A DNA stretch of 49,140 nucleotides from a virus. The position numbers were made by a program, and so were the translations under genes. The notes beneath the pieces are model-generated. The model worked only from the letters and a program-made list of their open reading frames with translations, was not told the DNA's origin and searched no databases. This document shows, in pieces, positions 1,250-37,171 of this stretch; positions within the stretch are counted from its first letter, which is position 1; each line of letters opens with the position of its first letter. Where the stretch lies: the IMG/VR virus record IMGVR_UViG_3300007542_000034, positions 1-49,140 of that record. The stretch is one strand, 5' to 3'.

Positions 1250-3319
1250 ATGAACCTAAAAGAAATATTCAAAAACTCATTTAAAAAAATACTTGAAAAG
1301 AGTTATTCTTATCGGGTAATAAAAAAGATACCTAGTGAATGGGTAGAAGAAAATGTTTATTTAACCAGTGCGGAAAGTGTCCGTACTGGTTATTTTAGTT
1401 ATAACTATTCTCCATATAGTAGAGAGGTTATAAATAGAATATCTACTAATGATCCAGCAGAAGTTATAGCGATTATGAAATGTTCGCAAAGTGGTTTTAC
1501 TTCAGGTGTGATAATTCCAGGAATGATTTACGCTATTGATGAAGCACCTGCAAATATTTTGTTTTTGTCGGGAAATGAAACGCTTTTAAAGGATACAATT
1601 AGAGATAGATTTGATACTGTAATTAACAACAATACAAGGTTAAAAGATTTAATAAGACCTAGTGTTGTAAAGAAAAAAAATCAAAAGTCAGGAGATACTG
1701 ATGCAAAAAAAGAATATGCTGGGGGGTCCTTGACTGCGATTACTTATAACCCATCAAAACTAAGATTTTATTCAGTTAAGTATATATTTGCTGATGAGTT
1801 TGACGATGCACCAAGAAATGATAAAAAAGAGGGTTCTATTCGTGCATTAGTTGAAGCACGTGCAAAATCTGTAGGATCAAGGCGTAAAATAGTTTACTGC
1901 AGTTCTCCAACTGTAAAGGGAAAAAGTAATATTGAGGAAGTATATGAAAAAGGAGATAAAAGGCATTGGAATTGGGAGTGTCCACATTGTAAAGAATATA
2001 TACCTATTCTTTGGAAAGTTGAAAAAGGAGATGGAAATTTTGCAGGCATTAAATGGCAGTTAGACGAAAACAAAGAACTAATAGAAGATTCAGTACATTA
2101 TGAATGTCAAAATTGCGAGGGTAAAATATTTTACAGACATAAATATGATTTAAATTTAACTGGAAAATGGATTCCAACTTGTAAACCAAAAGAGCCGAAC
2201 CACTATAGTTATAAATTTAATGCGCTTTGTAATCCTCCTGGCTTTAGTTCATGGAGTAAATTAGTTCGTCAATGGTTAGAAGCTAATCCACCAGGCGAAG
2301 TTGTGGACCAAGAGAAATTAAAAACATTTTTAAATACTGAACTTGGGGAGTTATGGGAAGAAAAAGGAACTGAAATCAAAATCCATGCTTTGATGGAAAA
2401 TACAAGGTCTTACAATATTGGTGTTATTCCGGATAAAACAATTGAAGCAGATGGACATGGTAAAATTGCCCTTATAACAATGGCTTGTGATTTAGGAGGT
2501 ATAATGAATGAAAACACAGAAGATGTACGCTTAGATTATGAGATAGTGGCTCACAGTACTAAAGGGCGTACTTATGCTGTTACCCATGGAAGTATTGGAA
2601 CTTTTAAGAGAAGTCGTGAAAAAAGTAAAAAAGACAAACTAGATGATGAAAATGGAGTTAGAACAATGTGGACCTATCGTCAAGGTGTTGAGAATTGTGT
2701 TTGGGATAAATTGAAAGAAATTATAGAGACTAATTTTCAATCTGAAAGTGGGAATGTTTACAATATAGATATTACTGTAATTGATACTGGTGGTGGTGGA
2801 GTTGGAGAAGAAAACCGATTCACAAAACTAGCCTACAATTTCATAGATTCATGCAATACTAGTTTAGTAATTGGTATTAAAGGAGAGGGAGAAGAGTTTA
2901 GGAAAACAAACAAGGATAGTCGTATTATAAGACCATCATCGGAGTTAAGAGGTAAGTTATACATACTTCAAGTAAATCAATTGAAAGATATTCTTTCACA
3001 AAACATACAACTCAAAAGAGGTATGGATGGTTTCCAACCTATGGGCTTTATGAACTTTCCAATGCCTGAAAATGGGAAATATACAATGTCATCTTATTTT
3101 AGTCATTTTGAGGGAGAGCATAGGGTACCTGAATACAAGAATGATGTCGAAGTTGGTTTTGCTTGGAAAAAGAAACACTCAGGAGTTAAAAACCACTTTT
3201 TTGACGTTGCTGTTTATAACATTGCAGCACGTGAGATATATCTTGATATTTTAAGGGGTTCAGATTCTAAACTTAGAAATATGACATTGGATGAGTTTTA
3301 TGATTTCATGGAAAATTAA
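1250..3319 (+). CDS. terL: Terminase large subunit, lambda gpA family
   Basis: This is the packaging motor and cos-cleaving nuclease (689 residues, close to lambda gpA). Visible parts in order are a Walker A-like loop KCSQSGFTSG (residues 77-86), a Walker B strand ending IFADEFDD (179-186), a zinc-ribbon pair CPHC (244-247) and CQNC (286-289), and a C-terminal nuclease with acidic residues at D414 (CDLGG) and D512 (VIDTGGGG). The gpA type generates cohesive ends, which agrees with the 13-bp terminal repeat. Its stop codon abuts the first copy of the repeated promoter element. Confidence 0.95.
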   Translation: MNLKEIFKNSFKKILEKSYSYRVIKKIPSEWVEENVYLTSAESVRTGYFSYNYSPYSREVINRISTNDPAEVIAIMKCSQSGFTSGVIIPGMIYAIDEAPANILFLSGNETLLKDTIRDRFDTVINNNTRLKDLIRPSVVKKKNQKSGDTDAKKEYAGGSLTAITYNPSKLRFYSVKYIFADEFDDAPRNDKKEGSIRALVEARAKSVGSRRKIVYCSSPTVKGKSNIEEVYEKGDKRHWNWECPHCKEYIPILWKVEKGDGNFAGIKWQLDENKELIEDSVHYECQNCEGKIFYRHKYDLNLTGKWIPTCKPKEPNHYSYKFNALCNPPGFSSWSKLVRQWLEANPPGEVVDQEKLKTFLNTELGELWEEKGTEIKIHALMENTRSYNIGVIPDKTIEADGHGKIALITMACDLGGIMNENTEDVRLDYEIVAHSTKGRTYAVTHGSIGTFKRSREKSKKDKLDDENGVRTMWTYRQGVENCVWDKLKEIIETNFQSESGNVYNIDITVIDTGGGGVGEENRFTKLAYNFIDSCNTSLVIGIKGEGEEFRKTNKDSRIIRPSSELRGKLYILQVNQLKDILSQNIQLKRGMDGFQPMGFMNFPMPENGKYTMSSYFSHFEGEHRVPEYKNDVEVGFAWKKKHSGVKNHFFDVAVYNIAAREIYLDILRGSDSKLRNMTLDEFYDFMEN
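3072..3079. other. No separate gene in the terL 3' end
   Basis: A 60-codon frame starts here, in another frame inside terL. It has no leader and the terL frame is fully conserved across it, so I do not call a gene. Confidence 0.2.
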
Positions 3320-3403
3320 AAATATTTTGTAATTTTTTTAAAATTTATTAGGTTATTTAAAAATATTTTGTAATTTAGCAGAGTCAAATAAGTATAACAA
3401 TTA
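3316..3403 (+). promoter_or_regulatory. Repeated promoter/operator element, copy 1
   Basis: The 18-bp motif AAAAATATTTTGTAATTT occurs at 3318-3335 and again at 3359-3376, exactly 41 bp apart. Each contains the perfect palindrome AAAATATTTT. The second is followed by TAATTTAG (3371-3378), one base from TAnnTTTG, and by the leader TAACAATTAA (3394-3403). The first motif overlaps the terL stop. Two more copies lie at 28662 and 44171. The layout suggests a promoter with paired operator sites driving the gene at 3417. Confidence 0.65.
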
Positions 3404-3416
3404 AAAAAATAATATT

Positions 3417-3734
3417 ATGAAAAATGTAATTAAATTTTTAGACTCATCAAATAATTTAACTTTAGTTCAAGCGACTACTCAAAGAACATCATTGATTTGC
3501 TTATATGATATTGTAAGTGGAGAAAAATTATACTATGAAGATTCTATAAATGCATCTGAAAAAAGAAATGAAATACTTGTAGCTCCAAATGGAAGAAACT
3601 ATAAAAGAATTGAGCAAATATCAACAGCATTAAAATCATCAAATAGAATCACAAGTGTAAAAACAGAAGAATTAAAAACCCAAACTCAAAAACACAAAAC
3701 TAACCCGCCATTTCTTATACACATTGTTATATGA
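3417..3734 (+). CDS. Hypothetical protein behind promoter element copy 1
   Basis: This 105-residue, Lys- and Thr-rich protein has no motif I recognise. The middle (LVQATTQRTSLICLYDIVSG) looks beta-rich. The last 20 or so residues (from KTQTQKHK) are of low complexity and read into the start of the neighbouring cassette-like segment, so the C-terminus may be a fusion created by that insertion. It is the first gene after a dedicated promoter element in the middle of the packaging genes, the usual position of a moron. Confidence 0.55.
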   Translation: MKNVIKFLDSSNNLTLVQATTQRTSLICLYDIVSGEKLYYEDSINASEKRNEILVAPNGRNYKRIEQISTALKSSNRITSVKTEELKTQTQKHKTNPPFLIHIVI

Positions 3735-3753: not shown

Positions 3754-4017
3754 ATGAAAACAAAAGAAGAATTTGAAGAAAAATTAATAGTTGGCGTAAA
3801 AATTAGATTCGGAAAAGAATACGCAAAAGAACATTATGCAACTGAAGGAGAAATTATAACTTTGGTTGAAGGCGATTTTGAAGATTATAACGGTCTTTAC
3901 ACCACCACAGAATACTCTCCAAGTGTATGGGATGAAGAAGTGGGTGAGTTCAATAGCATTTATCATTTATTTGGTAACGATTTTGAAAACTGGATGGATA
4001 ACACGATAGTTGAGTAA
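3754..4017 (+). CDS. Small acidic protein in cassette-like segment
   Basis: This 87-residue protein starts MKTKEEFEEKL and is rich in Glu, Asp and aromatic residues, with no signal peptide. A TTG at 3724 is in frame, but ATG at 3754 follows an A-rich leader and leaves the left inverted repeat outside the gene. It is the only gene between the flanking 11-bp inverted repeats, the one-gene arrangement of an integron cassette. Acidic proteins of this size in phage accessory loci are sometimes DNA mimics or anti-defence factors, but nothing here proves that. Confidence 0.55.
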   Translation: MKTKEEFEEKLIVGVKIRFGKEYAKEHYATEGEIITLVEGDFEDYNGLYTTTEYSPSVWDEEVGEFNSIYHLFGNDFENWMDNTIVE

Positions 4018-4025
4018 GCTATCAT

Positions 4026-4073
4026 ATAACAGCCTGATTTGCGATCGTTTTAATGTCGCCAATCATTTGTTAT
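4026..4073 (+). repeat. attC-like imperfect palindrome
   Basis: Outer arms ATAACA (4026-4031) and TGTTAT (4068-4073) pair, as do inner arms TGATTTGCGA (4035-4044) and TCGCCAATCA (4056-4065) apart from one mismatch. The spacers are unpaired and the loop is 11 bases. The motif TTGTTATGAT is then repeated in tandem up to 4085. There is no T-run, so this is not a normal terminator. Confidence 0.45.
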
Positions 4074-6819: not shown

Positions 6820-7506
6820 ATGAAAACATACAGAGTTTACCCAGGCACAGGATTTTTAATAGGAGAATATACAGTTGGTTCGTTATACATAGACCCATCT
6901 TGGACCATGGTAGATGTACAGTTACCACCTAATCACGGATTTATAAAGCCACAATTTAATTTTACATTACAGAAATGGCAAGAGGGGCTTAATCAGTCTG
7001 ATATTAATGAGTTAAATACGCCTATTTATGAAGAGAAAATAATATATTATTATCAATATTTAATGTTGCGTGCGTTAAGTAGTTCAATGGGTAAGAGTGG
7101 AAGTTATGAATATTTACAACTTCAGAAGCAAGAATATGAAATAAAATATTCAGTAGCAAAAGGATTGACAGAAAACACTTTGATTTCAGATGTAATTGAA
7201 AAGGAAATGTTGAGAGATTTTCCAGAAGAAAGTTTAAATTCAATATTAACAAGTTACGGAATTACACCAACAGGCACTCATTTAGAAAAAATGTTTCAAT
7301 TAATTGTGTTCAGATATGAGTATGCAGAATTAAGATATTCTCAATTCAAGGCTTTTATAATTGATTTCAGAGCTAAATGCAGGACATTTGTAGAGCAAAA
7401 TAACTGGATTAAATTAGATGAGTCTTTTTCTATTGTAGACGCTTTACCAACTGTATTAAATGATACAGAGATTGAGATATTTTATAACCAATTTGATATT
7501 TTATAA
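6820..7506 (+). CDS. Hypothetical protein between fibre genes
   Basis: This 228-residue protein has a beta-rich N-terminus (MKTYRVYPGTGFLIGEYTVG) with Pro and Trp spaced as in many fibre-associated proteins, then a mainly helical, aromatic-rich remainder. No signal peptide or membrane segment is visible. It starts four bases after the first fibre-like gene, so the two are probably co-translated. A role as fibre partner or chaperone is inferred from position only. Confidence 0.55.
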   Translation: MKTYRVYPGTGFLIGEYTVGSLYIDPSWTMVDVQLPPNHGFIKPQFNFTLQKWQEGLNQSDINELNTPIYEEKIIYYYQYLMLRALSSSMGKSGSYEYLQLQKQEYEIKYSVAKGLTENTLISDVIEKEMLRDFPEESLNSILTSYGITPTGTHLEKMFQLIVFRYEYAELRYSQFKAFIIDFRAKCRTFVEQNNWIKLDESFSIVDALPTVLNDTEIEIFYNQFDIL

Positions 7507-9364: not shown

Positions 9365-9682
9365 ATGAAGAAAATGATTTTTAATTATTGGGCGTTTTTG
9401 ATTTGGTTAGTTTCCTTTATTTTGGATTCTAATTACCAAATTTTAGAGAAAATTTTTGTTGATCCGTTTTGGGTGAACATAATTAGAGGATTAGGAGGTG
9501 TGGCATTGGCTTATTTTACGGGTAGTAAGCTTAAGAATACATTTAACAAGTCAGTAGACAGAGGAAATGTTTTTGACAAAGTAAGAGCATCTAGTTACAG
9601 GGAACCTGAAACAGACGAATCTGATTCAGGAATTGGAGGTGGTGGAATTAAAAACCCAAAAGACCCTAAAAACGGAGGATAG
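9365..9682 (+). CDS. Small membrane protein, possible holin
   Basis: This 105-residue protein has two hydrophobic segments (about residues 5-25 and 36-52) and a polar tail ending in Gly- and Pro-rich low-complexity sequence. Size, topology and position before the endolysin suit a holin or holin partner, but there is no family signature. The stop overlaps a GGAGGA that precedes the next start, one of the few Shine-Dalgarno-like sequences in the window. Confidence 0.45.
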   Translation: MKKMIFNYWAFLIWLVSFILDSNYQILEKIFVDPFWVNIIRGLGGVALAYFTGSKLKNTFNKSVDRGNVFDKVRASSYREPETDESDSGIGGGGIKNPKDPKNGG

Positions 9683-9683
9683 T

Positions 9684-10040
9684 ATGAAAATTTGGCTAAT
9701 AAAACATTATGTTAAGAAATACATTCATTTAGCTCCAATTATACTTTTAATTATTACAGTACTTTCAAATTTTATAGAGTTTAATTATTTGGTTGTTGGT
9801 AATTTATTAGGTTATTCTGTTTTGACAAATTTATTTTTATATTTTCATTTTAATTTTTTTGGTGATTATTGTTGGTTTACCAAAAAAGCACCTTTAGGAT
9901 TATTAGGAATGAATTTAGTTAATATAATTGGTGGGTATTTGGATTATGGGAATTATGAATTTATATTCACGATTAGTGTTTTTTCAGTAATATTAATTTT
10001 ACTATTTATTTTTAACCTTAAAAAAGTAGAAAAAACATGA
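9684..10040 (+). CDS. Four-pass membrane protein in lysis block
   Basis: This 118-residue protein has about four hydrophobic segments. An in-frame ATG at 9633 lies inside the preceding gene; the ATG at 9684, one base after that gene ends and behind GGAGGA, is the better start. It overlaps the next gene by four bases (ATGA), so the two are translationally coupled. It may be a holin or antiholin; the sequence alone does not decide. Confidence 0.5.
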   Translation: MKIWLIKHYVKKYIHLAPIILLIITVLSNFIEFNYLVVGNLLGYSVLTNLFLYFHFNFFGDYCWFTKKAPLGLLGMNLVNIIGGYLDYGNYEFIFTISVFSVILILLFIFNLKKVEKT

Positions 10041-10321
10041 TAGCACTACAAACAGTAAGCGACTTGAGAGATGTAATAACTATTAATGACGCAACAGTAA
10101 CTGGCACTTTAATAGCTATAGTTGTTGCGTTTGCAGTAGCTATTGTATATCTATATAAAAATGTCCAAAATCTTAACAAAGATTATGTACGTAATTATAC
10201 GGAATTAAATGAAAAATACATTGATGAATTAAGAAAAAATAACGAGATATTACTAAAAGTAAATAATTCATATAATGAATTTGCAAATAGTATGTTGAAA
10301 ATTTTTAATCAAAATAAGTAA
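10037..10321 (+). CDS. Single-pass membrane protein with coiled coil (holin or spanin-like)
   Basis: This 94-residue protein has one transmembrane segment (about residues 22-41, TGTLIAIVVAFAVAIVYLYK) followed by a charged helix of about 50 residues. That topology is found in inner-membrane spanins and some pinholins. The gene lies directly before the endolysin, and two lipoprotein genes that could supply an outer-membrane partner follow the endolysin. The choice between spanin and holin is open. Confidence 0.5.
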   Translation: MIALQTVSDLRDVITINDATVTGTLIAIVVAFAVAIVYLYKNVQNLNKDYVRNYTELNEKYIDELRKNNEILLKVNNSYNEFANSMLKIFNQNK

Positions 10322-10324
10322 AAA

Positions 10325-10795
10325 ATGATAACAACAAAAGAAGCAATTAAGATATTCGGGAAACCAAATCAGCAAGGGAGTTATTTAACTACAATTCAAT
10401 TGCCTTTTCCTTTGGTTTTATCATGGGATAAAAAAGTAAAAGTAAATAAAATGCGATGCCATAAGTTAGTAGCTAAAGACTTTTTAAATGCTTTAACTGA
10501 AATATTAGAGTGTTATGGTTACGAAAAAATAAAGGAACTAGGAATTGATTTGTTTGGAGGTTGTTTTGCTTTTCGTTCTATGCGTGGTGGTTCAGATTAT
10601 AGCCGACATTCATGGGGTATTGCAATTGATTTAGACCCTGAAAGAAACCAACTAAGAGAAACAAGTAAAACAGCTAGATTTGCAAGACCAGAATATAAAG
10701 ACATGATAGATATATTTTACAAGCATGGTTTTGTTTCTTTAGGGCGTGAAAAAAATTATGATTGGATGCATTTTGAACATTCAGGAAAATTTTAA
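10325..10795 (+). CDS. Endolysin, M15-family D,L/D,D-peptidase
   Basis: This 156-residue enzyme cleaves peptidoglycan stem peptides. The zinc site is complete: SRHSWGIAID (residues 93-102, ligands H95 and D102) and DWMHFE (146-151, ligand H149). This is the SxHxxGxAxD...HxE pattern of the VanY/endolysin M15 group. No signal peptide is present, so release through a holin is expected, and small membrane proteins lie just upstream. The start at 10325 is three bases after the previous stop. Confidence 0.9.
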   Translation: MITTKEAIKIFGKPNQQGSYLTTIQLPFPLVLSWDKKVKVNKMRCHKLVAKDFLNALTEILECYGYEKIKELGIDLFGGCFAFRSMRGGSDYSRHSWGIAIDLDPERNQLRETSKTARFARPEYKDMIDIFYKHGFVSLGREKNYDWMHFEHSGKF

Positions 10796-10807
10796 AAATA
10801 AATTAAT

Positions 10808-10815
10808 TATATTTG
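10808..10815 (+). promoter_or_regulatory. Putative -7 box (TATATTTG) very close to a start codon
   Basis: TATATTTG lies four bases before the ATG at 10820. If transcription begins at the usual distance from the box, the message would be leaderless or nearly so. Confidence 0.4.
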
Positions 10816-10819
10816 AAGC

Positions 10820-11161
10820 ATGAAAAAAATAATTTTAATGTTAATTCTGATGCTAGGCATTGGGTTAATGAGTTGCTCAAACGAGCAAGAGGATATTAAG
10901 AATGATGCTAATTACGAAAATGTAGAATATAAAGGCGTTGTTTACAAGTCTTTGACTGGTTTAGAAGCTGAGAAAGTAATTTCAGTTATAAATGATAGTT
11001 GTGAAAGTTGCAAAACCGATTGTCACGCAACAAAAGACGGTTGTAGATGGTTAGTTAATTGTGACGACAATACAAGTTACTACGTTTATAATGTAGCTGG
11101 TGGAGGATATTTAATCAGGAAAATTTCTTGGGACCCAACAGAAATATATCCACCATGTTAA
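10820..11161 (+). CDS. Cysteine-rich lipoprotein
   Basis: This 113-residue precursor has a lysine start, a hydrophobic core and a lipobox ending LMSC (cleavage before C19). The mature part carries six or more Cys (CESCKTDC, DGCRW, NCDD, final PPC), suggesting disulphide bonds in the periplasm. It follows the endolysin, so an outer-membrane lysis role is possible, but it is not proline-rich like classical o-spanins. Superinfection-exclusion lipoproteins also look like this. The next gene starts in its stop codon. Confidence 0.6.
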   Translation: MKKIILMLILMLGIGLMSCSNEQEDIKNDANYENVEYKGVVYKSLTGLEAEKVISVINDSCESCKTDCHATKDGCRWLVNCDDNTSYYVYNVAGGGYLIRKISWDPTEIYPPC

Positions 11162-11790
11162 TGAATAACAAAATATTAAAACCCATTCTATATTTAGGAT
11201 GGGTTTTTGCGTTTTTATTACTTTGGCTAAATGGTTGCGAAAGTGAAAAACAAACGACTGTTATACCTGAAGTAAAGGGAAATTTTGAGCCTACAAAAGA
11301 AATAACACATACAATTATAGATGCTGTTTATTTAGATAAAATAATTAAAACTAAGGATGCTAAACTAATAAACGATATAAGCACATTGTATAACGAAAAC
11401 GAAGTATTAAAACAGGTATATAGCAACGAAACCGATTCATTGAAAAGAGAGTTAATGTACTTGAAGTCGATACAATTAAATGAATTTTACCATGAATTTA
11501 ACAACGACACAATTAATATTTTAGTAAAAGGAATTGTTCAAGGAGAAGTGAAAAGCTTACAGCCATTTTACACCATTAAAGAACGCAAGCAAAGTGTAAC
11601 TATTCCAGTTGTCAAGTTTCGTTTGTTAACTGGTTTTGGAGTAGGTAACTCAATAAATTTCGATAAGCCATTATTTAAAGCTAATCTAGGTTTTCAAAAT
11701 GCAAAAGGAAATATTTTAAGAGCTAGTTTTGATACTGAAAAAAGATTCATGTTAGAATATGATTTTTCTATTTTCTCAATTAAAAAATAA
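11161..11790 (+). CDS. Lipoprotein with coiled coil, possible spanin
   Basis: This 209-residue precursor has a signal segment (about 8-22) and lipobox LNGC (C23 or nearby). A helical, charged stretch (about 60-115) and a beta-rich C-terminal third follow; a unimolecular or outer-membrane spanin could look like this. ATG at 11161 overlaps the previous stop (TAATG). The signal-peptide codons double as a strong hairpin with a T-run (11178-11208), so translation may control whether transcription passes this point. Confidence 0.55.
   Translation: MNNKILKPILYLGWVFAFLLLWLNGCESEKQTTVIPEVKGNFEPTKEITHTIIDAVYLDKIIKTKDAKLINDISTLYNENEVLKQVYSNETDSLKRELMYLKSIQLNEFYHEFNNDTINILVKGIVQGEVKSLQPFYTIKERKQSVTIPVVKFRLLTGFGVGNSINFDKPLFKANLGFQNAKGNILRASFDTEKRFMLEYDFSIFSIKK
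11178..11208 (+). terminator. Terminator-like hairpin inside a signal-peptide coding region
   Basis: AAAACCCATTC (11178-11188) pairs with GGATGGGTTTT (11197-11207) over 11 base pairs, one G-U, around an eight-base loop, and a T-run follows. It lies just after the lipoprotein gene at 10820 but within the first codons of the next gene. It could end the lysis transcript or act as an attenuator. Confidence 0.5.
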
Positions 11791-28627: not shown

Positions 28628-28654
28628 AAACCTCCAGTAAAATGGGGGTTTTTT
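28628..28654 (+). terminator. Terminator at the end of the structural genes
   Basis: AAACCTCC (28628-28635) pairs with GGGGGTTT (28644-28651), one T-G pair, loop of eight, followed by T. It closes the tail operon just before promoter element copy 2. Confidence 0.8.
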
Positions 28655-28765: not shown

Positions 28766-28972
28766 ATGGGAACTTTTAAAGTATTAAACATAAAAAAAAC
28801 TTACACAAATCCAATAACAAATAAAAAAGCAATAGTTGTTAAAGTAATAAAAGAAGGAACTAAAAGAACTTTTTTTTCTGTTCAAAATGAAGAAAGTAAA
28901 TATATAACTAGAACAATGTTTGCGAGAGAATATGATGCAAATAGATTGGCAAAGCAATACTGTAATGCATAA
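28766..28972 (+). CDS. Hypothetical basic protein behind promoter element copy 2
   Basis: This 68-residue, Lys/Arg/Thr-rich protein has probable beta strands (TFKVLNIKKTYTN, KRTFFSVQNE) and no known motif. It is the first gene of the block controlled by the repeated promoter, where phages often place early host-takeover factors. It overlaps the next small frame by one base. Confidence 0.6.
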   Translation: MGTFKVLNIKKTYTNPITNKKAIVVKVIKEGTKRTFFSVQNEESKYITRTMFAREYDANRLAKQYCNA

Positions 28973-29061
28973 TGAAAATAAAACAAAAGCTAAACTACTT
29001 TGGAAGAGATTGCGAAGTAGTTGATTTAAACACAACTCACGTATTTAAAAGATTTTATTGA
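28972..29061 (+). CDS. Very small protein (29 residues)
   Basis: The frame starts in the previous stop (TAATG) and reads MKIKQKLNYFGRDCEVVDLN and nine more residues. It is basic, with no known motif. Translational coupling supports it, but its length makes it uncertain. Confidence 0.35.
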   Translation: MKIKQKLNYFGRDCEVVDLNTTHVFKRFY

Positions 29062-29116
29062 AAATAATTTATAACACTTAACACAAATATTTTAAACCAA
29101 TAAATAACAATTAAAA

Positions 29117-29404
29117 ATGAAAAAAATTTTAGAGTGGCTTTTTAAATTCATAGAGAGCCAAAGAATAGAAAGAAAAAAAATAGAAAACATTATTTCACTA
29201 AATAAAAAATATGGATATTTAGAAAAAATAGTCCTTTATACGAAAGAAAAAAGAGTTTTAAATATTCTACTAATTAAATTTGATGATATTATTAACGAGG
29301 TTAAAAATACAGATGTAAATGAGCATCACAGAGAAAGTTTAATTAAGCTTTGTGAAATTAACAAAGAGATTATAACAATAAAATTAAAATCAATTAATAA
29401 TTAA
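29117..29404 (+). CDS. Hypothetical helical protein
   Basis: This 95-residue protein is almost wholly helical and charged (Lys/Glu/Ile), starting MKKILEWLFKFIESQRIERK. The first amphipathic helix may touch the membrane. The leader TAACAATTAA lies two bases before the ATG (29105-29114). Function unknown. Confidence 0.55.
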   Translation: MKKILEWLFKFIESQRIERKKIENIISLNKKYGYLEKIVLYTKEKRVLNILLIKFDDIINEVKNTDVNEHHRESLIKLCEINKEIITIKLKSINN

Positions 29405-29421
29405 CTTTAAATAAATAAATT

Positions 29422-29610
29422 ATGAACACAGAAGAAACAACAACGATTAACGGATTAACTTTTTTACAATTTTGCAATGGTCTTTTTGGATTTTTTGTAA
29501 TCAACAAAAAAACAAGAGAAGAAGTATTTAGATTTGAATTATATCATGCTGGTTTTAGTTTAGCGTATATAAAAGATAATTTTAACTTAGAGCCAAGACC
29601 AAAAAAATAA
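29422..29610 (+). CDS. Hypothetical small protein
   Basis: This 62-residue protein contains a mixed pattern (FLQFCNGLFGFFVINKKTREEVFRF) suggesting a small alpha/beta fold. It lies in the accessory block just before the outer-membrane gene. No motif recognised. Confidence 0.5.
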   Translation: MNTEETTTINGLTFLQFCNGLFGFFVINKKTREEVFRFELYHAGFSLAYIKDNFNLEPRPKK

Positions 29611-29626
29611 CAATTAAAAAACAATT

Positions 29627-30118
29627 ATGAAAACAATTAAATTAATTTTAGTATTACTTGTATCTACTGTATCAGTAGGTCAAGGATTGTATGGAAACGA
29701 TGATAAACGTTTTACAATTTCAATTAACACAGAGCCAAACGCAATAATCAAGGATGGTTTTAATTTTGGAGCAAACATTGATTATCAGATGGACAACACC
29801 TATTTTAAATTAGGTATTTATTCTTTTCCTGATCTTAACAATGTGGGTTACTTCCAGTATCATGGAGCAGTTGGATTTAATAAACACTTAGGAATGTTTG
29901 AAGATTCACGTGTTTATGTAGGCGGATTAGTAGGCGTGAATTTCAGAGAGGGTAACAGAAACCCGATTGCTGGAATTGAGGGAGGTTATCAGTACTATTT
30001 AACCGAAAGCATCGGTTTAGGATTAATGGCTTCTTATATTTATCGTTCTGATTCGGAGTTTTACGAGGGCGATATGTGGATTTTTAACGGAGGTATTGAA
30101 ATAATCTTTGTACTTTAA
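29627..30118 (+). CDS. Small outer-membrane beta-barrel protein
   Basis: This 163-residue precursor has a signal peptide (residues 1-19, MKTIKLILVLLVSTVSVGQ). The rest is alternating aromatic and Gly-rich strands (KRFTISINTEP, GFNFGANIDYQMDN, TYFKLGIYSF, GGYQYYLTE, IGLGLMASYIYRSD) ending WIFNGGIEIIFVL, a typical terminal barrel strand. That predicts an eight-strand outer-membrane barrel. Phage-coded barrels can block receptors or change the envelope. It has the TAACAATTAA leader (29608-29617) and precedes a second exported protein. Confidence 0.7.
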   Translation: MKTIKLILVLLVSTVSVGQGLYGNDDKRFTISINTEPNAIIKDGFNFGANIDYQMDNTYFKLGIYSFPDLNNVGYFQYHGAVGFNKHLGMFEDSRVYVGGLVGVNFREGNRNPIAGIEGGYQYYLTESIGLGLMASYIYRSDSEFYEGDMWIFNGGIEIIFVL

Positions 30119-30145
30119 ACTAATTAACAATTAAATATTTTACCA

Positions 30146-30664
30146 ATGAAAACAATTTTTACAACAATTTTTTTAGCTATTACAGTAATAGCAGGAGCGC
30201 AAAACCTTAATTTATCAGGAAATCATGTGATAGAAAACAGCACGGGTAATTGCTATCCTAAGGAAACTGTAACGATTCACAACCTAAACATGAACGGTGA
30301 TGCTGTTCTAAACATTTCGGGTGTAGATTTAGTGATTACTGGTAATATGAATGTAAACGGGCACTCGTTAACTATCATTTCATATTGTCCTAATGTGCCT
30401 AGTAAAGTTTGCGTTCAAGGTAACTTAAATATACAAAATGGTAACACTGTCAACTATGTAAATTCTCAACTTGATTGCAATAGTTTAGCTATGCCAGTTT
30501 TCGACATAAACACAGATTTAAACGAGCCTTTTGTGATTTATAATCTATTAGGGCAAGAAATTAAAAGAGGTGTTACAGACTTGTATATGTATTCTGATTT
30601 GCCTAAAAATACGGTTTACATTGTGAGAGTTGAGAGTTACGAACAATTTAAAATAATTATATAA
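30146..30664 (+). CDS. Exported protein with type IX secretion C-terminal domain
   Basis: This 172-residue precursor has a signal peptide (1-18, ending AGA before QN), a repetitive beta-strand middle (about 22-105, LNMNGDAVLNISGVDLVITG) and a C-terminal segment (about 118-172) with YNLLGQEIKRG and LPKNTVYIVRVE...FKIII. That is the layout of type A sorting domains (vyNllGq...G-Y-v-v...KiI) recognised by the Bacteroidota type IX secretion system. The phage protein is therefore predicted to reach the cell surface. Leader TAACAATTAA at 30125-30134. Confidence 0.75.
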   Translation: MKTIFTTIFLAITVIAGAQNLNLSGNHVIENSTGNCYPKETVTIHNLNMNGDAVLNISGVDLVITGNMNVNGHSLTIISYCPNVPSKVCVQGNLNIQNGNTVNYVNSQLDCNSLAMPVFDINTDLNEPFVIYNLLGQEIKRGVTDLYMYSDLPKNTVYIVRVESYEQFKIII

Positions 30665-33879: not shown

Positions 33880-34683
33880 ATGATAGAAAACAAAAAAAGA
33901 ATTTCAAATTTCACTAGTAGTCAAATGTATAGACTGGTTGGATTAGGAACCAGAAATGCTACTAAAGAAGAAATAGCAGAATTTAAAAAAGAAAATCCTA
34001 AATCACAAAAAAAAACTATTAAATGTGAAAATACATTTGATGAAAAAGCATACACTTATATCGAAGAGAAAATATATGAAAAAGCTTTAAAACGTTCAAT
34101 TGATACTGGTGCCTATTCTCAATCTATGGCATGGGGTAAGTTCCTTGAAAAAAGGGTAAATGATAATTTAGGTATGGAATATTCGTTAATTTCAAAAACT
34201 ACATTTTCACACCCAAAATATGATTTTTGGACTGGTTCTCCTGATTTTGTAGTGCAAAATATTAAAGATGCTGAACTAAAATGTTATGAACCTAAAAACT
34301 TTGCTAGCTATGCAACTGCTTTATTAACTGAAAATACTGAAATAATAAAAGAAAAGCACCCTAAAGAATACTGGCAAATAATTAGTAATTCTATTATTTT
34401 AGGAGTTCCAAAAGGCGAAGCAATTTTATATATGCCTTATGAAAGCGAAATGGACGAAGTTAGAGAGCTTGCAGAAAATCCAGAATATTTACAACAAATT
34501 GGAATGATGCCTTGGGAAGTTCGATTTATAGTAGAGAAAAGCAACTCACAATTAGCCGTACTTCCAGATGATAGTAGTTTTCCTAACTTAATTAAATTTG
34601 AGTTTGATATTCCTGTAAAGGATGCAGAATTTTTAACTAAACGGGTCTTAATGGCTAGTAAAATTTTGAATAATGGAGTATAA
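33880..34683 (+). CDS. YqaJ-family 5'-3' exonuclease (lambda Exo-like)
   Basis: This 267-residue nuclease has TSSQMYRLVG at the N-terminus, E90 in AWGKFLEKRVND, GSPDFV (119-124, D122), AELKCYEPKN (131-140, E132 and K134) and YWQIISNS (164-171), which is the YqaJ pattern G-x-x-x-E ... D ... E-x-K ... Q. It makes 3' tails for the RecT-like annealase. It overlaps the next gene by 11 bases. Confidence 0.87.
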   Translation: MIENKKRISNFTSSQMYRLVGLGTRNATKEEIAEFKKENPKSQKKTIKCENTFDEKAYTYIEEKIYEKALKRSIDTGAYSQSMAWGKFLEKRVNDNLGMEYSLISKTTFSHPKYDFWTGSPDFVVQNIKDAELKCYEPKNFASYATALLTENTEIIKEKHPKEYWQIISNSIILGVPKGEAILYMPYESEMDEVRELAENPEYLQQIGMMPWEVRFIVEKSNSQLAVLPDDSSFPNLIKFEFDIPVKDAEFLTKRVLMASKILNNGV

Positions 34684-37171
34684 AGAATTTTTAGAAAACA
34701 AGATAGTAATTGCAGATTCTTTTGGCTATGAAATAGATCAATCAGAAATAAATCCAATTGCTTTACCTCATCAAAAAGATATTATTCAATGGAGTATTTC
34801 AGGAGGTAGAAGAGCTATTTTTGCATCATTTGGACTTGGAAAAACTTTAATGCAATTAGAGATAGCTAGGCTTATAATTAAAATAACTGGAAAACCTTTT
34901 CTTATTTGTATGCCTTTGGGAGTTATTGGTGAGTTTAAAGATGATAATGAGCTGCTAAATACTGGTTTTGAAGTTAAGTATATAAAAGATAGCGATAGCG
35001 TAGAGACTTCTGAATTGGCAATTTATGTTACTAACTATGAAAGAATAAGAAAAGGAGATGTAAAAGCTGAATTTTTTGGAGGTGTTAGTTTTGATGAAGC
35101 TAGTATTTTAAGAAATTTAAAAACAGAAACTACTAATTATGTTTTAAAGCATTTTAAAGACGTTAATTATCGCTTTGTAGCTACAGCTACACCAACACCA
35201 AATGACTTCATAGAGATACTTAATTATGCAGATTATTTAGGTGTTATTGATAGAGGTCATGCGCTTACAAGGTTCTTTCAAAGAGATTCTACTAAAGCTG
35301 GTCATTTAACTTTATATGAAAACAAAAAAGAGGAGTTTTGGAAATGGGTTTCAACTTGGGCGGTTTTTATCAATAAACCATCTGATTTAGGTTATGATGA
35401 TACTGGTTATAATTTACCAAAATTGAACCTTATTGAAATTGAAATTGATAATACTTCAGATGGAGTTATTACAAATAGAAATGGTGATATTGTCTTAGTC
35501 CCAGATTTAACAAAATCTTTAATTGACACCTCAAGGGAAAAATCAAGTTCAATTGACATAAGAGTAAACAAAGCCTTTGAAATTGTAAACGAAAATGAAA
35601 ATGAAAATTGGATTTTATGGCATCATTTAGAATCTGAAAGAACTGCAATTGAAAAGAAATTTAAAACTAAATTTGATGTAAAATCTGTTTATGGAAGTCA
35701 AAAAAACAGTGAAAAAGAAAATTTGTTAATTGATTTTAAACATTCAAAATATCAAATATTAAGTACTAAACCTAAAATAGCTGGTTCAGGTTGTAATTTT
35801 CAACATGCTTGCAATAATATGATATTTGTAGGTATTGATTATAAATTTAATGATTTCATTCAGGCTGTACATAGGCTTTACAGATTCAAACAAGATAAAG
35901 AGGTAAATGTTTATGTTATATTCACTAATAATGAAAGAGAAGTTTTAAAAACATTAAAAGAAAAGTGGAAAAAACACATTGAACTTCAAACAGAAATGAT
36001 TAATCTAGTTCGAGAATATGGTTTGAATACCAATAAAATAAAAGCAGACATGAAAAGACAAATTTTTGACAATAGAAGAAGTGCTACAATAGGAGGTGCG
36101 ACTGTTTTTAATGAAGATACAGTTGCTATTCATAATGAAATGGAAAGTAATTCTACAGATATGATTTTAACCTCTATTCCATTTGGAGATCACTATGAGT
36201 ATAGCGATAATTATAATGACATGGGTCATAATCATGGAAATGATGAATTTTTTAAACAAATGGATTTTTTAACACCAAATCTTTTAAGAACTTTAAAACC
36301 TGGTAAGATTGCAGCAATACACGTTAAAGACCGTATTAGATATAGTTATCAAAACGGAACTTCATTTACTACTATTGACGATTTTAGCGGAAAAACAGTA
36401 GCTCATTTTGTTAAGCATGGTTTTTATTTATGTGGTAAAATAACAGTAACTACAGATGTGGTTAGGGAAAATAATCAAACATATAGACTTGGTTGGTCTG
36501 AACAATGTAAAGATGCTACTAAAATGGGGGTTGGACTTCCTGAATATATTTTATTGTTCAGAAAAAGACCAAGTGAAATGAATAATGCTTACGCAGATGA
36601 ACCTTGCGAAAAAACTAAAGAAGAATATACAATTGATAGATGGCAATTAGATGCTCATGCTTACTGGAAAAGTTCAGGCGATAGATTTATGAGTAGTGAA
36701 GAGCTTTCAACTGCTGACATGAAAGCAGTATTTAATCGTTGGAGAGAATTTGATAAAAAAAACATTTATAATTTTCAAGAACATTTAAAAGTTTGTAAAG
36801 ATTTAGAAAATTCAGGTAAATTAAGTCGTTTATTTATGACTATTCCACCTACTTCAAATACAGATATGGTTTGGACAGATGTTAATAGAATGAACACTTT
36901 AAATGCAAATCAAGCGAATAGAAAAAAGGAAAAACACATTTGTCCTTTGCAGTTAGATATAATTTCAAGGTTAATTGAACGATTTACAATGAAAGGTGAT
37001 GTAGTAGATGATCCTTTTGGTGGTTTGTTCTCAACAGCTTATAAAGCTTTAGAGATGGAAAGAAAAGCAATAAGCACAGAATTAAATCCTAATTATTATG
37101 ACGATGGTTTATTTTATTTAAAATCAATTGAATATAAAATTAATGTACCAACTTTATTTGATATTTTATGA
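34673..37171 (+). CDS. Helicase-DNA methyltransferase fusion protein
   Basis: This 832-residue protein joins two enzymes. The N-terminal SF2 helicase has Walker A ASFGLGKT (51-58), Walker B DEAS (141-144), motif III ATATP (170-174) and motif VI QAVHRLYRF (397-405). From about 470 a beta-class amino methyltransferase follows, with the catalytic loop SIPFG (501-505) and the AdoMet loop DPFGGLFST (780-788). Canonical versions are SPPY/F and DPFxGSGT, so both sites are altered. It may modify phage DNA or be an evolved remnant. The start overlaps the exonuclease gene and the end overlaps the next gene (ATGA). Confidence 0.85.
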   Translation: MEYKEFLENKIVIADSFGYEIDQSEINPIALPHQKDIIQWSISGGRRAIFASFGLGKTLMQLEIARLIIKITGKPFLICMPLGVIGEFKDDNELLNTGFEVKYIKDSDSVETSELAIYVTNYERIRKGDVKAEFFGGVSFDEASILRNLKTETTNYVLKHFKDVNYRFVATATPTPNDFIEILNYADYLGVIDRGHALTRFFQRDSTKAGHLTLYENKKEEFWKWVSTWAVFINKPSDLGYDDTGYNLPKLNLIEIEIDNTSDGVITNRNGDIVLVPDLTKSLIDTSREKSSSIDIRVNKAFEIVNENENENWILWHHLESERTAIEKKFKTKFDVKSVYGSQKNSEKENLLIDFKHSKYQILSTKPKIAGSGCNFQHACNNMIFVGIDYKFNDFIQAVHRLYRFKQDKEVNVYVIFTNNEREVLKTLKEKWKKHIELQTEMINLVREYGLNTNKIKADMKRQIFDNRRSATIGGATVFNEDTVAIHNEMESNSTDMILTSIPFGDHYEYSDNYNDMGHNHGNDEFFKQMDFLTPNLLRTLKPGKIAAIHVKDRIRYSYQNGTSFTTIDDFSGKTVAHFVKHGFYLCGKITVTTDVVRENNQTYRLGWSEQCKDATKMGVGLPEYILLFRKRPSEMNNAYADEPCEKTKEEYTIDRWQLDAHAYWKSSGDRFMSSEELSTADMKAVFNRWREFDKKNIYNFQEHLKVCKDLENSGKLSRLFMTIPPTSNTDMVWTDVNRMNTLNANQANRKKEKHICPLQLDIISRLIERFTMKGDVVDDPFGGLFSTAYKALEMERKAISTELNPNYYDDGLFYLKSIEYKINVPTLFDIL

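Follow-up and report, generated by a model that had tools for sequence, protein, structure and literature searches.

Phage proteins of the outer membrane or envelope that exclude other phages, such as Lom-like proteins and T5 Llp, are known, and none of them, to our knowledge, uses the type IX secretion system (T9SS). The proteins predicted here would also be small secreted phage proteins at the outer membrane. Phage-encoded T9SS cargo was reported for Cryophage (2020, Nat Commun), where superinfection exclusion was already proposed (PMC7468147). The initial annotation of the locus studied here had suggested that its phage cargo could be a new superinfection-exclusion route; judging by the Cryophage passages on this point, that idea was in print in 2020. 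In both cases phage genes that vary from phage to phage end in T9SS type A sorting domains. The Cryophage cargos are an endoglucanase, a GH39 protein and a PA14 protein, and the passages describing them mention no barrel partner (PMC7468147), whereas the cargo described here consists of a small beta domain with four Cys and a shortened C-terminal domain (CTD), carried in a mobile two-gene module. Measured against those passages, the concept of a phage T9SS cargo had a precedent; novelty lies in how minimal this cargo is and in its association with a mobile barrel. Phage proteins with Q-rule signal peptides were also described in P. gingivalis and suggested to alter the host outer membrane; they share this type of signal peptide with the proteins studied here, and the term "T9SS" is absent from the main text of that report (PMC10367356).

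The window, which is the whole stretch of DNA analysed (49,140 nt), is a 49-kb virus record carrying genes for terminase, portal, head protease, major head protein, tail sheath, tape measure and baseplate. It belongs to a contractile-tailed virus of Flavobacterium that is distant kin of the Ficleduovirus phages of Flavobacterium columnare, with 74.6% DNA identity across 10% of the first 25 kb and 53% identity for the portal. The phage origin assumed in the initial annotation was borne out by these structural genes and this kinship. A run of small membrane or lipoprotein-like ORFs, possibly lysis genes, was observed inside the structural module at 9365-11790.

The cargo gene and its exported domain

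The ORF at 30146-30664 starts with ATG and was confirmed as a real gene with the boundaries first assigned to it; stop codons are abundant on the reverse strand of the same interval. That it is a phage gene is practically beyond doubt. Its parts are as follows.

30146..30664, + strand: predicted T9SS cargo of 172 aa, with a signal peptide, a beta-rich four-Cys domain and a C-terminal type A-like sorting domain
30146..30199, + strand: signal peptide, residues 1-18, Sec/SPI, predicted mature N-terminus Gln19, from sequence inspection
30200..30481, + strand: mature N-terminal domain, residues 19-112, beta-rich, with Cys36/81/89/111, from the three-copy alignment
30482..30661, + strand: type A-like T9SS C-terminal domain, residues 113-172, from a sub-threshold TIGR04183 match, AF2 strands and RgpB CTD as top structural match
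30536..30562, + strand: equivalent of motif Lb3b4, I131-Y-N-L-L-G136-Q-E-I139, with G136 invariant in three copies
30647..30661, + strand: equivalent of motif C-t., F168-K169-I-I-I172, with K169 invariant in three copies

The signal peptide, MKTIFTTIFLAITVIAGA followed by Gln19, is clear by inspection and was also seen in a hydropathy scan, confirming what had been claimed for this protein. It agrees with the Bacteroidetes Q-rule, by which signal peptides end before Gln (PMC5837995). A Gln follows the predicted cleavage site in all signal peptides aligned, those of the cargo copies and of the barrel family alike. Export of the cargo through Sec is near certain. The four Cys are confined to the front domain, where three occupy invariant columns of the three-copy alignment, as expected for a protein acting outside the cytoplasm. 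The "repetitive beta middle" of the initial annotation stood in part: the region is beta-rich, but no repeat could be counted, and the strands of the AF2 model there have pLDDT <50 and are not interpretable. Matches of the front domain to DUF7584 and DUF7305 were far under cut-off and were not used.

The window copy was compared with its relative on contig L001. For residues 20-112 the dN/dS was 0.025/0.82, or about 0.03, and for CTD residues 113-172 it was 0.21, with a dN of 0.154 in the CTD against 0.025 in the front domain, so that the CTD changes about six times faster at the amino-acid level. Purifying selection on the front domain of the cargo is extreme: this exported part is strongly conserved, and the tail, though still constrained, varies more freely.

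The C-terminal sorting domain

The C-terminal motifs first pointed out in this protein (YNLLGQEI, LPKNTVYIVRV, KIII) are present, and their assignment to type A sorting domains holds at the level of the family, by profile, fold and motif, but not for the window copy by the curated threshold. In a search with 18,950 models, TIGR04183 matched cargo residues 121-172 over profile positions 15-71 of 72 with 13.6 bits (E 0.051), under its curated cut-off of 23 bits; the PF18962 search (cut-off 27 bits) did not report the window cargo. Chance was estimated by HMMER E-values, and TIGR04183 alone against the six-frame translation of the whole genome gave the cargo E 5.1e-4. The homologue at L005:6835-7323 clears the TIGR04183 cut-off (26.5 bits, E 4.5e-6) and scores 23.7 bits with PF18962, under the cut-off of that profile. 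It aligns with the window cargo from end to end in BLASTP (E 9e-28, 37% identity), indicating a recognisable sorting domain as the ancestor of the window C-terminus. The L001 copy gave no TIGR04183 match at all.

Compared with the type A domains of TIGR04183 and PF18962, the cargo is alike in the C-terminal position, the predicted Ig-like strands, the IYNLLGQE segment of Lb3b4, the beta-7 lysine and the signal peptide. It differs in that profile positions 1-14, with the PNP strand, are lacking: the window domain starts at profile position 14-15 without a clear first strand bearing the PNP motif, of which the L005 copy keeps a remnant, FNP. The usual LxxGxY turn is also altered, to LPKNTVY, and the L001 copy has lost its Tyr as well. 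Mutagenesis of P. gingivalis CTDs showed that the Lβ3β4 glycine and the C-terminal strand (β7) with its lysine matter for secretion, and mutual identity among T9SS sorting domains is very low (PMC11285876). The cargo has both the glycine (IYNLLGQEI) and the last-strand lysine (FKIII).

The AF2 model of the cargo, built from only three sequences, has an overall pLDDT of 45 and is confident at the C-terminus only, with means of 68-82 per ten-residue block across residues 121-160 and strands at 128-132, 138-143, 157-162 and 168-171. In a Foldseek search of 350,542 PDB chains, the first match of this model was the RgpB CTD, with a weak E of 0.4 and a probability of 0.90. In VIA-align the two best-ranked entries were both RgpB CTDs (Z 5.1); the mirolase CTD was also listed, as were T9SS substrates of F. 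johnsoniae, namely NucA (27% identity over 56 residues), RemZ and RemA, whose CTDs are bound in the translocon of that species. A PDB sequence search with the cargo returned only a weak match to a collagen-adhesin Ig domain. The fold match is taken as supporting evidence only, because unrelated Ig-like domains (Cel9A, SpyCatcher, transthyretin; Z 4.0-5.1) score alike in VIA-align.

On these scores the C-terminal resemblance might be that of the common Ig-like beta-sandwich, unrelated to the T9SS. This is improbable, given that the L005 homologue clears a curated cut-off that is based on sequence and not on structure, that T9SS substrates recur among the matches though they are rare in the PDB, and that the domain forms the very C-terminal end of a protein with a Bacteroidota signal peptide. 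It is also conceivable that the ancestor was a T9SS cargo and that the sorting domain is decaying in the window copy, leaving a periplasmic or barrel-associated protein. The sub-threshold score of the window copy, the unmatched L001 copy and the faster amino-acid change of the CTD all fit such decay. However, the dN/dS of the CTD is still 0.21, the Lb3b4 glycine and the beta-7 lysine are kept, and very low mutual identity is normal for sorting domains (PMC11285876), so that we consider decay unlikely. Judged by its sequence, the likeness of the window C-terminus to sorting domains is more than chance, though this copy is divergent, and a sorting domain is very likely present by descent. That the cargo is actually exported by the T9SS is probable, though the window tail is divergent.

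Sorting-domain matches were also obtained in other phage records. The contig IMGVR_UViG_3300022918_000015 (G005/L015/L019), a fragment that is kin of a 462-kb uncultured phage, has a terminal ORF with a T9SS type A sorting domain of 33.4 bits, and it also carries a secreted 165-aa ORF whose end resembles a barrel strand. Positions 3271-3465 of MT836839.1, an 8.5-kb human faecal "Bacteriophage sp." record, match the sorting-domain consensus with E 1e-4, which could reflect a phage cargo or host contamination.

The barrel partner and the two-gene module

A barrel gene that the initial annotation had passed over lies directly before the cargo gene, and the surrounding region has the following features.

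28628..28651, + strand: candidate intrinsic terminator at the end of the structural module, upstream of the slot below
28766..30664, + strand: variable accessory slot, bounded by the last structural gene and the first genes of the replication side
29605..30659, + strand: shared module of barrel and cargo gene, about 1.05 kb, with 83% DNA identity to the unrelated phage contig L001 by blastn
29627..30118, + strand: partner gene of 163 aa, with a signal peptide and an eight-stranded OmpA-like outer-membrane beta-barrel, from AF2, Foldseek and the family alignment

The signal peptide and the eight strands of the partner are predictions. Its AF2 model has a pLDDT of 76.6, and Foldseek found OmpA (E 5.7e-5), NspA and OprF as the closest structures. 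The phage barrel resembles these proteins in its predicted eight strands, with OmpA as best fold match; it differs in its low identity to them (11-15%), in being phage-encoded and in lacking the periplasmic domain of OmpA. The barrel family has no significant PHROG or Pfam match, a sign that accessory genes for T9SS-tagged and outer-membrane proteins may be under-annotated as a class in Bacteroidota phages. Relatives of the barrel were not found in the plasmids searched. At the loci read, four barrel relatives have no cargo gene next to them, those of Winogradskyella phage Peternella_1, Flavobacterium phage MaF61, L025 and L026, two of these cargo-less relatives lying on a 368-kb and a 30-kb contig; the genomes of all four gave no match over the TIGR04183 cut-off. 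Secreted barrels at L012:5914-6429, L013:5914-6417, L025:3995-4519 and L026:4001-4486 form one family in very different Bacteroidota phages, with records of 30 to 368 kb and no PHROG assignment for L012 and L013, the two tested. The 5′ leader and signal-peptide codons of the window barrel (29605-29683) are nearly identical at L001:6733-6811 and 7428-7506, where two paralogous barrel genes share a near-identical leader and differ in their mature parts, as if new barrels were swapped in behind a fixed export leader.

Two relatives of the cargo were found in IMG/VR, on L001 (88%) and on L005 (37%). None was found in the annotated phages or plasmids searched, nor in GTDB genome contigs by two scans seeded with exact patterns, so that hosts may still hold relatives of this domain at the front of the cargo. 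In all three phages the order is barrel gene, then cargo gene; L001 has two barrel genes, and in L005 one short ORF lies between barrel and cargo. Outside 29605-30659, blastn matched the window and L001 only over short stretches of 40-79 bp. L005 is a siphovirus near the Baltic Flavobacterium phages, with a primase 68% identical to those of sniff9-2 and hattifnatt9-1, and therefore the pair has moved between phage types. The corresponding slot of FCV-1, FCOV-F2, L006 and L007 holds other short ORFs and lacks the barrel-cargo pair, indicating that the pair is accessory. Sequence comparison thus presents barrel and cargo as an evidently discrete, horizontally shared two-gene module. A small dedicated cargo travelling with an OmpA-like barrel between a myovirus and siphoviruses appears to be new.

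The terminator scan of the region found two such sites, against a shuffle average of 1.2. The Bacteroidota promoter pattern was no commoner than in shuffles (3 vs 4.3), so expression timing cannot be inferred from promoters. The Rfam search found nothing.

Proposed role of the pair

We consider the pair a surface-remodelling two-gene accessory module whose soluble half is a T9SS cargo, a reading to which we give a probability of about 0.5. A role at the cell surface is proposed because both partners point there. Computation shows the setting in a phage genome, the predicted barrel fold, homology with conserved motifs, the mobility of the module and purifying selection; export, pairing and function are inferred, as follows. 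Sec and signal peptidase I would take barrel and cargo across the inner membrane, and the barrel would fold in the outer membrane as an OmpA-like barrel. The host T9SS translocon would recognise the minimal type A sorting domain of the cargo and thereby expose its cysteine-rich front domain at the cell surface. At that site, the pair would most likely mask or compete with adsorption features, for example barrels of the OmpA type and adhesins delivered by the T9SS, and so keep the infected cell from being re-infected. The pair is mobile and, for the phage, would be non-essential. We lean towards the cargo acting together with the barrel.

Accessory genes of this kind are often exclusion genes. 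Flavobacterium hosts mutate T9SS and gliding genes to resist phages: F. columnare resistant to phage V156, a relative of the window phage, has mutations in sprA, gldK/M/N, sprE and ompA (PMC9233685). Gliding proteins are also discussed as adsorption factors in Cellulophaga (PMC13288928). This habit of accessory genes, the V156-resistance mutations and the Cellulophaga gliding proteins together make superinfection exclusion the best guess for the purpose of the pair. The OmpA-like barrel partner and the T9SS/gliding and ompA mutations of V156-resistant hosts lend plausibility to exclusion, receptor block or capping of the motility machinery, the roles first suggested for the cargo, and these are put forward tentatively. 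The more specific proposal that the pair is a mobile two-part exclusion module, in which the barrel and a T9SS-delivered protein jointly hide or occupy Flavobacterium phage receptors, is speculative. If true, the phage would make the secretion system needed by its relatives into its own shield. A phage gene pair that exports its own protein through the T9SS would be a direct, testable link between phage, secretion machine and surface receptors, and its cargo would be a small model for sorting-domain work.

The cargo might be rightly assigned and yet serve another advantage in the lytic cycle, such as a decoy or shield against binding to debris, adhesion or spreading by infected cells, or an action against competitors. 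A location at the surface does not by itself fix a function, the T9SS cargos in the Cryophage passages are enzymes and a PA14 protein (PMC7468147), and PADLOC matched the pair to no known exclusion or defence family. On the other hand, the OmpA-like partner and the OmpA and T9SS mutations of V156-resistant hosts favour a link to adsorption, and another advantage of this kind is possible. A module for lysis or outer-membrane disruption might be suspected from small secreted and outer-membrane proteins placed right behind structural genes. However, the lipoprotein-like and membrane ORFs at 9365-11790 fit that role better, the candidate terminator lies between the pair and the late genes, and absence of the pair from FCV-1 and its relatives indicates that lysis does not need it, which together make a lytic function highly improbable.

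Further observations were made in the phage genome. A 56-bp hairpin at window 4017-4072 recurs at L001:5746-5801 with 87.5% identity, in phages otherwise unrelated. In each phage it immediately follows an ORF or sits at its end. It folds better than shuffles (z -3.3 and -4.1) and had no match in the phage collection searched; a terminator and a site resembling integron attC are both possible. At window 34673-37171, an 832-aa protein fuses a SNF2/Helicase_C-type helicase to an N6/N4 DNA methyltransferase domain.
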